Source: Planctomycetota bacterium (GTDB lineage: Bacteria; Planctomycetota; Phycisphaerae; Sedimentisphaerales; Anaerohalosphaeraceae). From it: a stretch of 64,000 nt of DNA. Positions 40,441-44,919 of this stretch are shown here, piece by piece (within the stretch, counting starts at the first letter, position 1; every line of letters begins with the position of its first letter). The stretch covers positions 1 to 64,000 of the forward strand of contig DUZQ01000005.1 of NCBI GenBank assembly GCA_013349435.1, given 5' to 3'. The notes under the pieces were generated by a model that was not told the DNA's origin, searched no databases, and was given only the letters and a program-made list of their open reading frames with translations. Made by a program: the position numbers and the translations under genes.

Positions 40441-41559
40441 TTGAATTTCAGTCGTGATTCGGCACTTACCTTGCTTGAGATTAAATGTATTCGTATATAT
40501 GACGCAAGTAACAAAAGGAATATAGATTTGAGCAACTCCGAAGCTGAGCATAATTTAACAAAACAGTTGTCGGCTCTGTACCGTCAGCAGGTTGACTGCG
40601 GATTTGTTCTTTCCGACCCGCTGAACGGCAAAGGCCAGGAGGAGAAACGTTTCTTTGACGAAAGCTGCGGTGTTGAATTTCGTTTTTTGTGGAATCCCAA
40701 TCGAGAGCTGAGGAAAAACCATGAATTGCTGATTCAACGCGGGGTGGTGGCGAAACACGTTGATACGGACAAACTTATCAATAAAGACAAGAATGGAAAG
40801 GCCTGCTATCTCTGCAAGGAGAATATAGCCTTGCAGAATCCGGCTGAAGTGCTGTTTCCCCTCAAGCTGGCGGGTGAAGAGTATTTTGCCGGAGCCAATT
40901 TCGCCTACATAACAAACAACCATTTTACGATAATGAATTCTCTGCACCGACCCCAAAAATACCGCAGGGGCGTGCTTGCGGCGCTCGATGACTTTGTCCT
41001 GCAAACGGATGGTTTCTTTCGGGCGATATTCAACGGATTAGCGGGAGCTTCCATACCATGGCACGAGCACATGCAGGCGACAACGGAAAAGTTTCCTATC
41101 GAAGATATAAAGATTACAGATACCGATATTCTTCGTGATGACGGCCGTATTCGGGCCTCTACGCCGTATTATTATATCAGTGTAGGGCTTGTGGAGGGAA
41201 ATTCGAGGGCCCAGGTTGAGGATACCGCCGACAGGGCAATCGAAAAGTGGCACAGCTTCAACAAAAAACGCCACACCGAGAATGTCATCGCTACTATGAT
41301 TGACGGGCGTTTCCGTATGTTCATCATATTAAGAGACGCCGCTAAACGTGCCGGCAGTGGTAAAGCCGGTGCGATGGCCGCCTTTGAATGTGGCGGCAAT
41401 ATCGTGCTGTCTTACGAACCTCCGGAGACCCAAAGCGATAAAGTAAACGAAAGAATTACATTTGACCGGGCATCGCTCGAAACCGCCAAACAACTGCTTA
41501 GTGATGTTGCTCCCGACTCTGGAACGGCAAAGGCGGCCTTTCAGGAAGCCTGGCTTTAA
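40441..41559 (+). CDS. DUF4922/HIT-superfamily nucleotide phosphorylase-like protein
   Basis: NHFTIMNSLHRPQKY and IPWHEHMQATT (HxH-type motif), CxxC in ACYLCKEN; start uncertain. Confidence 0.65.
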   Translation: MNFSRDSALTLLEIKCIRIYDASNKRNIDLSNSEAEHNLTKQLSALYRQQVDCGFVLSDPLNGKGQEEKRFFDESCGVEFRFLWNPNRELRKNHELLIQRGVVAKHVDTDKLINKDKNGKACYLCKENIALQNPAEVLFPLKLAGEEYFAGANFAYITNNHFTIMNSLHRPQKYRRGVLAALDDFVLQTDGFFRAIFNGLAGASIPWHEHMQATTEKFPIEDIKITDTDILRDDGRIRASTPYYYISVGLVEGNSRAQVEDTADRAIEKWHSFNKKRHTENVIATMIDGRFRMFIILRDAAKRAGSGKAGAMAAFECGGNIVLSYEPPETQSDKVNERITFDRASLETAKQLLSDVAPDSGTAKAAFQEAWL

Positions 41560-41642: not shown

Positions 41643-41670
41643 TTGACATTTGCCGAAAACCGTTAATAAT
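41643..41670 (+). promoter_or_regulatory. Strong sigma70-type promoter for the ileS leader
   Basis: TTGACA (41643-41648) - 16 bp - AATAAT (41665-41670). Confidence 0.7.
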
Positions 41671-41706
41671 AGTTACTGTTTTGTTGCTTTCCAAGGAGTT
41701 TTTTAT

Positions 41707-41829
41707 ATGAATAGTATGAGAAGAGACATTCAAATCGAGTCGAGAGATTCGGCCCTGTGCATAAATTATATGCACACACGAATAGTTCTGGGCATCGTTA
41801 TTATTACGGAGAGACTGAAACCGCTCTGA
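41707..41829 (+). CDS. Candidate Ile-rich leader peptide upstream of ileS
   Basis: AAGGAG 8 nt upstream of ATG; 40 aa MNSMRRDIQIESRDSALCINYMHTRIVLGIVIITERLKPL; 7 Ile, 4 of them within 8 residues (IVLGIVII). Confidence 0.6.
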   Translation: MNSMRRDIQIESRDSALCINYMHTRIVLGIVIITERLKPL

Positions 41830-41852
41830 GAAAGCAAAATTGTATTTTACAG

Positions 41853-41887
41853 GCCTTCCGGAGCGACAAGCCCCGGAAGGCTTTTTT
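41853..41887 (+). terminator. Intrinsic terminator (attenuator) upstream of ileS
   Basis: 9-bp perfect stem GCCTTCCGG/CCGGAAGGC followed by TTTTTT. Confidence 0.88.
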
Positions 41888-42024
41888 ATTGGTTATTTGT
41901 TTGAAAGAAGGCTGTATGGGCTGCAATTTTCACGATTTGGTGGAAGGGACGGGTTTGCTGCCCATGCTGAAAGTTGACACAAATGGTCAGCGCGCGTAGT
42001 ATATGTGATTCTTAATTATGGTTT

Positions 42025-44919
42025 ATGAGGTTTACAGCGATGTCGGATGACAAGAAAAAAGGTTATCGGGATACACTTAATCTGCCGAAGACGGGCTTTT
42101 CGATGAAAGCGAACCTCGTCCAGCGAGAGCCTGCCCAGCGCAAGAGCTGGGCGCAGATGGATATTTACAGCAGGATTTTAGACAATCGAAAAGGTGCGCT
42201 TTCGTACATACTGCACGATGGGCCGCCCTACGCCAACGGTGATATTCACATGGGCCATGTTATAAATAAGGTGCTTAAGGATATTGTAGTCAAATACAAA
42301 ACTATGGCGGGCTTTTGCGCGCCATATGTCCCCGGCTGGGACTGCCACGGCCTGCCTATTGAAGTGAAGGTAATGGCCGAACTTGGCGACAGGGCCAAGG
42401 AAATGGACAAGCTGCAGATTCGCACCCAGTGCAAAAAATATGCGAGCAAGTATGTTAAACTTCAGTCGAAACAGTTTCAGTCGTTGGGGATTTTCGGGGA
42501 TTTTGAAAATCCGTATCTGACGCTCAAACCTCAATATGAGAAAGGCATCCTGGAGATTTTCGCGGAGCTTGTCGGTAACGGCCTTGTTTATAAGCAGTTA
42601 AAACCGATTCACTGGTCGGTGGGCTGCCAGACGGCCTTAGCCGATGCCGAATTAGAGTATCAGGACATAAGCAGCCCGAGCATTTTTGTGAACTTTCCTG
42701 TTGCTGCCGAGTCGGTTGATAAACTTGTCGAATTAGGCCTGGTTGATAAGTCATCGGACACAAAGCCGTGCTTTATGATATGGACCACGACACCGTGGAC
42801 ATTGGCGGCGAACCTGGCGGTTGCGGTGCATCCGCGGCTCGAATACGTCAGTGTCGGTTATGAAAAAGATGGCCGAAAGTTTACATCAATCATCGTGGCA
42901 GACAGACTTGAAGCCGTGCTCGCAGCCGCCGGTCTCGAAAAAGCCGGCTATACCGTGAGCGAACGGATAAGAGGCAGTCAGCTTGAGGGTTTACGATATG
43001 TTCATCCGTTTATCGAGTCCAATCCGACCGACAAGGAAGCTTATATGGTGATAAGCGCCGAGTTTGTTACGACCGAAGACGGCACCGGCATCGTGCATAT
43101 CGCTCCGGGTCATGGTGTAGAGGACTACGTAGCAGGCAGACAGAACGGGCTGGCGGTTTATTCTCCGGTAAAGGATGACGGCTGTTACGATGATACGGTG
43201 CCCGAATGGCTGAGGGGTAAAAATGTTCTGGATGTGGATAAAGACGTCAACAGCCGGTTGCGGGCCGATGGTTACCTTGTACACGATGAAAAGATGCTGC
43301 ACAGCTATCCTCACTGCTGGCGGAGCAAGATGCCGGTGATTTTTCGGGCAACCGAGCAGTGGTTCATCAGCGTTGATACCCCTATTCGGCGAACCGGCAA
43401 GAGCCTCCGGCAAATGGCCCTTGAGGCGGTCAACGGCGTGCAATGGGTGCCCGGCTGGGGCAAGAAGCGAATCGAGGGTATGCTGGAATCCCGGCCCGAC
43501 TGGTGCATCAGCAGACAGAGAAGCTGGGGTTTAGCCATACCTTCCTTTGTAAACGGCAAAGGTTATTCGCTCCTGACGGTTGACCCGGCTGTCGGCAAAA
43601 AGGTGGTGTTGGCGGTAGCCGAACATATCGGGAATAAAGGTTCGGATAGCTGGTTCACAGCTTCTCCAAAGGAAATTCTTGGGGCCGATTTCGATTTGCC
43701 GCAAGGCTTCAGTTGGGATGATTTGCACAAGGAGGAAAATATTTTCGATGTATGGTTCGAGTCGGGCTGTAGCTGGCACAGTGTTGCCGCCGGGGCCGGC
43801 TGGCCGATACCGGTCGATTTGTATCTTGAAGGCTCGGACCAGCACCGCGGCTGGTTTCAACTGTCGCTCTTGCCGGCTCTTGGGTCGGCAGGCAAGGCGC
43901 CCTTTAAGACGGTGCTTACGCACGGCTTTACGGTCGATGAAAAGGGTATGAAGCAATCGAAGTCGGCGGGCAATTATGTAAACGCGCTGGATGAGATACA
44001 TAAATACGGAGCGGATATCCTGCGGCTGTGGGTGGCCAGTGTGAACTATCAGGAGGATATGCGGTGCAGCGATGAGCTTATCGGCAGGCTCCAGGATGCG
44101 TACAGGAAGATAAGAAATACCCTGCGGTATCTTTTGGGCAATACTGATGATTTTGTCCCGGTGTCGATGAAGGTTTCTTATGAGGATATGTTCGAGATTG
44201 ATAGGTGGGCGATGCAGCAGTTGCAAAAACTGATTGTCAGGGTCGGTGACGCTTACGAGAGCTTTGCCTTCCACAGGGTCTTTTCGCTTATTTACAATTT
44301 CTGCACGGTCGAGATGAGCAGCATATATATGGATGTTTTGAAGGACCGGCTCTACTGCGATGCCGCCGACAGTAAATCCAGACGCAGCGCCCAGACGGCA
44401 ATGCACCGGATATTAGACGCCCTGGTACAGATGTTGGCTCCCGTGTTGGCTCACACGGCAGAAGAGGCATGGTCGGCAATGAAGCATAAATCCGAAGACG
44501 TCCAAAGCGTGCATTTAGCTACAATGCCGAAAGTTGACGAATCAATAGATTGGCAAAGCGAAGAAGCAAAATGGGATAAGGTAATGGGCCTTCGAGACGA
44601 GGTCCTTCGTGAGTTAGAAGGCTTAAGACAAGCCCAGAAAATCGCCAGTAACCAGGAATCCGCTGTAAGCATCACCACCGACAACGAAGAATTGATTTCG
44701 CTCGTCAGTGATTTAGGGGTAGAGACTTTTGCAGCGCTCTGTATCGTAAGCGAGGTAAAGCTGCAAAGCGGCGACTGCTTAAAGGTCGCAGCGGATAAAA
44801 GCAGCCACGCCAAGTGTCAGCGCTGCTGGAACTACCGGCCGAGCGTCGGCGCGGTCGGCACTTATCCAGACCTATGCCGGCGGTGCGTCGATGTGGTCAG
44901 CGATAAAAAGCCGGTTTGA
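42025..44919 (+). CDS. ileS: Isoleucyl-tRNA synthetase
   Basis: HDGPPYANGDIHMGHVINKVLKDIVVKYKTMAGFCAPYVPGWDCHGLPIE; KMSKS-like GMKQSKSAGN; C-terminal CQRCWNYRPSVG zinc site. Confidence 0.97.
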   Translation: MRFTAMSDDKKKGYRDTLNLPKTGFSMKANLVQREPAQRKSWAQMDIYSRILDNRKGALSYILHDGPPYANGDIHMGHVINKVLKDIVVKYKTMAGFCAPYVPGWDCHGLPIEVKVMAELGDRAKEMDKLQIRTQCKKYASKYVKLQSKQFQSLGIFGDFENPYLTLKPQYEKGILEIFAELVGNGLVYKQLKPIHWSVGCQTALADAELEYQDISSPSIFVNFPVAAESVDKLVELGLVDKSSDTKPCFMIWTTTPWTLAANLAVAVHPRLEYVSVGYEKDGRKFTSIIVADRLEAVLAAAGLEKAGYTVSERIRGSQLEGLRYVHPFIESNPTDKEAYMVISAEFVTTEDGTGIVHIAPGHGVEDYVAGRQNGLAVYSPVKDDGCYDDTVPEWLRGKNVLDVDKDVNSRLRADGYLVHDEKMLHSYPHCWRSKMPVIFRATEQWFISVDTPIRRTGKSLRQMALEAVNGVQWVPGWGKKRIEGMLESRPDWCISRQRSWGLAIPSFVNGKGYSLLTVDPAVGKKVVLAVAEHIGNKGSDSWFTASPKEILGADFDLPQGFSWDDLHKEENIFDVWFESGCSWHSVAAGAGWPIPVDLYLEGSDQHRGWFQLSLLPALGSAGKAPFKTVLTHGFTVDEKGMKQSKSAGNYVNALDEIHKYGADILRLWVASVNYQEDMRCSDELIGRLQDAYRKIRNTLRYLLGNTDDFVPVSMKVSYEDMFEIDRWAMQQLQKLIVRVGDAYESFAFHRVFSLIYNFCTVEMSSIYMDVLKDRLYCDAADSKSRRSAQTAMHRILDALVQMLAPVLAHTAEEAWSAMKHKSEDVQSVHLATMPKVDESIDWQSEEAKWDKVMGLRDEVLRELEGLRQAQKIASNQESAVSITTDNEELISLVSDLGVETFAALCIVSEVKLQSGDCLKVAADKSSHAKCQRCWNYRPSVGAVGTYPDLCRRCVDVVSDKKPV

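Follow-up and report, generated by a model that had tools for sequence, protein, structure and literature searches.

In textbooks, ileS is a gene controlled by T-boxes. The T-box (RF00230) at ileS of Firmicutes and Actinobacteria senses tRNA-Ile charging by binding the tRNA directly, without a leader peptide. In the pheST (PheM), trp, his, leu and ilv attenuators of Proteobacteria, a short open reading frame (ORF) containing cognate codons is combined with an intrinsic terminator and a mutually exclusive antiterminator; pheST, too, is a tRNA-synthetase operon. A first-pass annotation of the locus described here remarked that leader control of ileS is not commonly described, and indeed we found no leader-peptide attenuator of ileS in the freely accessible literature; Lopatovskaya et al. 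2010, reportedly a comparative paper on the attenuation of synthetase operons, might mention the gene. Nor did we find in that literature a description of leader attenuators in the order concerned, or in Planctomycetota. Candidate leader-peptide attenuators have been predicted for leuS and trpS of Streptomyces, in a study that assigned translational T-boxes to ileS of Actinobacteria (PMC1262725). These candidates likewise lie at synthetase genes outside Proteobacteria, and their amino acids and phylum differ from those of the present locus.

We analyzed a stretch of 64,000 nucleotides of planctomycete DNA (the window), which sits within a draft genome of 3.1 Mb. The region ahead of ileS contains the following features, several of which are predictions.

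41643..41670, + strand: P1, predicted sigma-70-type promoter of the leader (TTGACA 41643-41648, 16 nt, AATAAT 41665-41670)
41693..41698, + strand: Shine-Dalgarno sequence AAGGAG of the leader ORF (duplex with the anti-Shine-Dalgarno sequence, -8.0 kcal/mol)
41707..41829, + strand: leader ORF, ATG 41707, 40 sense codons, TGA 41827-41829, MNSMRRDIQIESRDSALCINYMHTRIVLGIVIITERLKPL
41782..41805, + strand: Ile control region ATA GTT CTG GGC ATC GTT ATT ATT, the last Ile being codon -8
41821..41834, + strand: segment 2, antiterminator 5' arm with the stop codon within (partner-swap test, covariation; CGCTCTG of the first-pass annotation, 41822-41828)
41853..41866, + strand: segment 3, common to antiterminator and terminator (partner-swap test, covariation; CGGAGCG of the first-pass annotation, 41859-41865)
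41871..41881, + strand: segment 4, terminator 3' arm (folding, covariation)
41882..41887, + strand: T6 run of the intrinsic terminator (sequence; leave-out HMM match 41816-41887)
41974..42002, + strand: P2, predicted proximal ileS promoter past the terminator, TTGACA-17-TAGTAT (sequence; relatives)
42040..44919, + strand: ileS, isoleucine--tRNA ligase (NCBIfam TIGR00392, 886 bits versus a cut-off of 621)

The promoter, Shine-Dalgarno sequence, ORF, Ile cluster, pairing segments and T6 run are all present where the first-pass annotation had placed them, its terminator arms being 41853-41861 and 41873-41881. P1 scores 11/12 against the consensus, and a sister species (G001) carries TTGACA-16-GATAAT in the same place. 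A short ORF with a ribosome binding site is thereby found ahead of the terminator; its Ile run is interspersed with Val, Leu and Gly. Folding of the leader RNA (41677-41890) gives -66.4 kcal/mol, which is lower than dinucleotide shuffles by 5 sd. The start of ileS is likely ATG 42040 and not 42025, as it is preceded by GAGG and aligns with the relatives' ATGTCGGAT. The gene upstream of the leader (40441-41559) weakly resembles hexose-1-phosphate uridylyltransferases, below all cut-offs.

The arrangement shares with pheST and the trp, his, leu and ilv attenuators the cognate-codon ORF, the intrinsic terminator and the exclusive antiterminator. Unlike them, it occurs in planctomycetes, has ileS as its target, has no conserved hairpin of segments 1 and 2 (the 1:2 protector), always carries its stop codon inside the antiterminator arm and is followed by a second promoter past the terminator; in some relatives, GNAT acetyltransferase or methyltransferase genes lie within the unit. 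With the T-box it would share the sensing of tRNA-Ile charging and the control of ileS. No T-box (RF00230) match was obtained at the window leader or in 21 genomes of the order, whereas control genomes do match. At the window leader, all Rfam families stay below their cut-offs, and in twelve related loci Rfam matches were confined to a tRNA and a group II intron, both away from the leader. His_leader (RF00514) weakly resembles 41792-41888; this identity was rejected because the match (26.1 bits) falls below the gathering score of 49 and the codons are Ile, not His.

The leader is conserved among relatives. In the other genome of the genus it occurs at 77% DNA identity over ∼260 nt, before an IleRS fragment that is 92% identical, and inspection of 500–1500 nt upstream of ileS across the family revealed a like arrangement in ∼10 genomes. 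A covariance model, R1, built from eleven leader sequences, matched 88 of 162 genomes of the order (probably Sedimentisphaerales) at E ≤ 0.01, a count that includes matches away from ileS; since about half of the genomes yielded no match, ileS can do without the leader. In a class-wide sample (E ≤ 0.001) nearly all R1 matches lay within the order, one outside genome having weak matches, and in a phylum-wide sample (E ≤ 1e-4) two genomes only matched, both of the same family. The element before ileS thus appears restricted to this one planctomycete order and practically absent elsewhere in the class and phylum. The general core model R2, run on the window genome for further attenuators, gave only the ileS copy as a strong match; weak R2 matches were not used because at weak scores the model is largely a terminator finder.

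Among the R1 matches examined, the ileS group comprises 63 leaders at 62 loci, one locus having two tandem leaders. Wherever the contig is long enough, ileS follows an Ile-rich leader on the same strand, in L046 at a distance of ∼2.5 kb on the same contig; at L079, L080 and L091 the contig ends before a downstream ileS could appear. At L095:597-1727, a tandem pair of Ile-type leaders ∼1 kb apart is followed by one ileS. In five genomes of family f5 (G039, G044, G048, G052, G056) the best IleRS match is divergent (∼30% identity), and an Ile-leader was not observed there.

An ORF of 16–46 codons is present in 61 of the 63 leaders, and 56 have at least four Ile codons within the last 22. The first-pass claim of an Ile-codon leader upstream of ileS, which would have fallen had the ORF or its Ile codons been unconserved in relatives, is therefore borne out. 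Ile occurs at codons -8, -9, -10, -11 and -12 before the stop in 83, 86, 75, 81 and 65% of the 63 leaders, respectively, and in none at codons -1 to -4. All three Ile codons are in use (ATT 218, ATC 76, ATA 74), which indicates that the amino acid is conserved rather than the DNA. Because R1 contains the Ile codons, some bias toward Ile among its matches is expected; the model nonetheless recovered Ile-poor leaders at other genes. The spacing between stop codon and terminator arm is 27–31 nt in 60/63 leaders, and that between the last Ile codon and the antiterminator arm is 14 nt in 47/63, so that the spacing of the cognate-codon cluster from the antiterminator is fixed. A ribosome extends about 14 nt beyond its A site.

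Comparison supports both the intrinsic terminator and the antiterminator that excludes it. An HMM of the core from segment 2 to the terminator, built without the window genome and its sister species, found 41816-41887 in the 64-kb window with E = 2e-16 and 55.8 bits, the best of 20 shuffled windows reaching 10.2 bits; the element in the window is more than chance. In a MAFFT alignment of the 63 leader cores, 96.5% of cells are paired in the terminator (3:4), with nine doubly changed pairs, and 85.9% in the antiterminator (2:3), with seven. For both pairings, the covariation score is higher than in any of 500 shuffles or any slid register; if only doubly changed pairs are counted, 26 of 500 shuffles reach the value of the antiterminator, and antiterminator pair 11-55 is non-standard in 35/63 leaders, mostly C-A. 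When each segment was paired with a partner from another genome (partner-swap test), native partners were superior for 3:4 (z = -10.6) and for 2:3 (z = -3.4, p = 1e-4; z = -3.2, p = 6e-4 in 36 non-redundant sequences). The control pairing 1:3 was null (z = -0.3) and 2:4 weak (z = -1.9; -1.0 in the non-redundant set); kinship among leaders partly remains in both the covariation and the partner-swap controls. The compensatory changes proposed as a check for the 2:3 and 3:4 stems were thus found in both. The stop codon lies inside segment 2 throughout (alignment columns 13-15 of the 63 cores), which means that segment 2 would be directly covered by any ribosome that completes the leader.

We therefore propose that the element is a transcription attenuator operated by the ribosome, which responds to charged tRNA-Ile and tunes read-through from P1 into ileS and, in some relatives, into GNAT or methyltransferase genes before it, a reading to which we assign a probability of roughly 0.83. 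With ample Ile-tRNA, the ribosome would reach the stop codon and cover segment 2; segments 3 and 4 would then form the terminator, and transcription would end near 41887. With scarce Ile-tRNA, the ribosome would stall at the Ile codons, the last of which ends ∼14 nt before segment 2. Segment 2 would then be available to segment 3, their pairing would block the terminator, and RNA polymerase would enter ileS. P2 would give a basal IleRS supply independent of the switch. Comparative sequence shows the ORF, the Ile positions, the two pairings and the link to ileS; that P1 and P2 drive transcription, that the leader is translated, that ribosomes stall on it and that charging is sensed is what we infer.

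A conserved P2 after the terminator had been overlooked in the first-pass annotation. A sigma-70 site scoring at least 9/12 starts 52–82 nt before ileS in 72 of 78 distinct upstream regions, as against 35 of 375 control windows; it occurs both with and without the leader, and a few loci lack a clear P2. Because P2 lies between terminator and ileS, the attenuator would act only on distal P1 transcripts, and because this holds in most loci, the switch may add little to IleRS supply. An exception is L106:600-1230 (L106/G132), in which Ile-leader and terminator come first, then a GNAT gene that shares a TAATG overlap with ileS; P2 is undetectable, and ileS apparently depends on the attenuator. The link from leader to ileS that had been proposed stands, but it missed the genes that ∼22 leader loci carry between terminator and ileS, mostly GNAT acetyltransferases or SAM methyltransferases (of 30 intervening ORFs, 17 match a GNAT and 10 a methyltransferase family). 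In L046, L101 and L107, two to five co-directional genes, largely GNATs, occupy this position. Among sampled ileS loci that lack a leader, the closest ORF upstream is encoded on the other strand, is missing or is doubtful. A GNAT-IleRS fusion (NCBIfam NF040702) was considered and rejected, as the window protein falls far below the cut-off and the intervening GNATs do not match.

The same gene families recur at R1 matches away from ileS, where methyltransferases come next in 13/28 and GNATs in ∼10/28. The Ile run is confined to the ileS leaders; leaders at other genes have other residues. Leaders without Ile runs precede class I SAM methyltransferases at L125, L126, L129, L132, L136, L141, L142, L149 and others; in this group they lie ∼15–60 nt from the gene, often end in KExxP and have similar N-terminal parts such as LTSRKAAAMLMRT, some with IFV/IIV-like motifs. 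Similar leaders stand directly before GNAT acetyltransferases at L118, L123, L130, L134, L135, L137, L139, L143 and L147. At L112 and L119, leaders with GMGMG Met repeats precede methyltransferases and are possibly Met-responsive, and at L124 a Trp-containing leader ending in IKWKWPTP precedes a PhzF-family gene. Aromatic leaders with terminators are found at L128:607-1572 (LFYFWFYF) and L145 (VFYFGYWFWFYY). The gene after the L128 leader scores above cut-off as an ADH synthase, an enzyme of aromatic biosynthesis; the leader is likely an attenuator of amino acid synthesis, which suggests that amino-acid-matched attenuation is in use in the order.

The first-pass annotation had drawn a classical, trp-type four-segment attenuator, in which a 1:2 protector hairpin blocks antitermination when the leader is untranslated. 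This part of its geometry did not survive, whereas the Ile-codon ORF, terminator and exclusive antiterminator are conserved. The window sequence allows the 1:2 stem (CGGAG 41807-41811 with CTCTG), but this stem is complete in just 4/63 leaders, is not better paired than some slid registers and shows no covariation, native partners being no better than swapped ones (z = +1.3). We rejected the protector hairpin and regard the four-segment scheme as unlikely; for an untranslated leader, the two-structure scheme would predict the opposite outcome. Short ORFs upstream of terminators are common, yet the conservation, the covariation and the positional Ile profile refute the idea of a plain intrinsic terminator that follows an ORF by chance, and we give it practically no credence.

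It is improbable that the leader forms a short transcription unit of its own, producing a small RNA or peptide, with ileS served by P2 alone. The presence of P2 with or without a leader and a terminator-to-ileS distance ranging from 54 nt to several kb would fit such a unit, but ileS invariably follows Ile-rich leaders on the same strand where contigs allow, P2 is weak or missing at some loci, among them the overlapping GNAT-ileS operon of L106, and the conserved antiterminator would be purposeless. Alternatively, the Ile-rich nascent peptide itself may arrest the ribosome, for example together with an antibiotic, and the attenuator would answer arrest instead of tRNA-Ile charging. The run is hydrophobic, IFV/IIV-like motifs occur in some related leaders, and these leaders precede genes of the GNAT and methyltransferase families, in which drug-modifying enzymes occur. 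An Ile run found at ileS only, however, is a match of amino acid to gene that leaders of other genes do not repeat, and we consider peptide arrest a poor prospect beside attenuation by charged tRNA-Ile. A broader and rather doubtful extension of the tRNA-Ile attenuator is that the leader-peptide attenuators of the order are stress sensors. The Ile version might report that isoleucylation is blocked, also where a natural antibiotic inhibits IleRS, and switch on GNATs or methyltransferases that could neutralise the inhibitor, along with extra IleRS; sister leaders might do likewise for other GNAT and methyltransferase genes.

Taken together, the comparative data very probably identify an Ile-codon attenuator that occurs across the order and acts on the distal ileS transcript, as far as we found previously undescribed at this gene. 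The covariance model provides a ready marker for the element, and the recurrent link to GNAT and methyltransferase genes raises a new question, namely what signal these operons answer. Much of a Planctomycetota order appears to use coupled transcription and translation for ileS in place of the T-box; if so, the two processes would be coupled so closely in these bacteria that RNA polymerase can be steered by a stalled ribosome.
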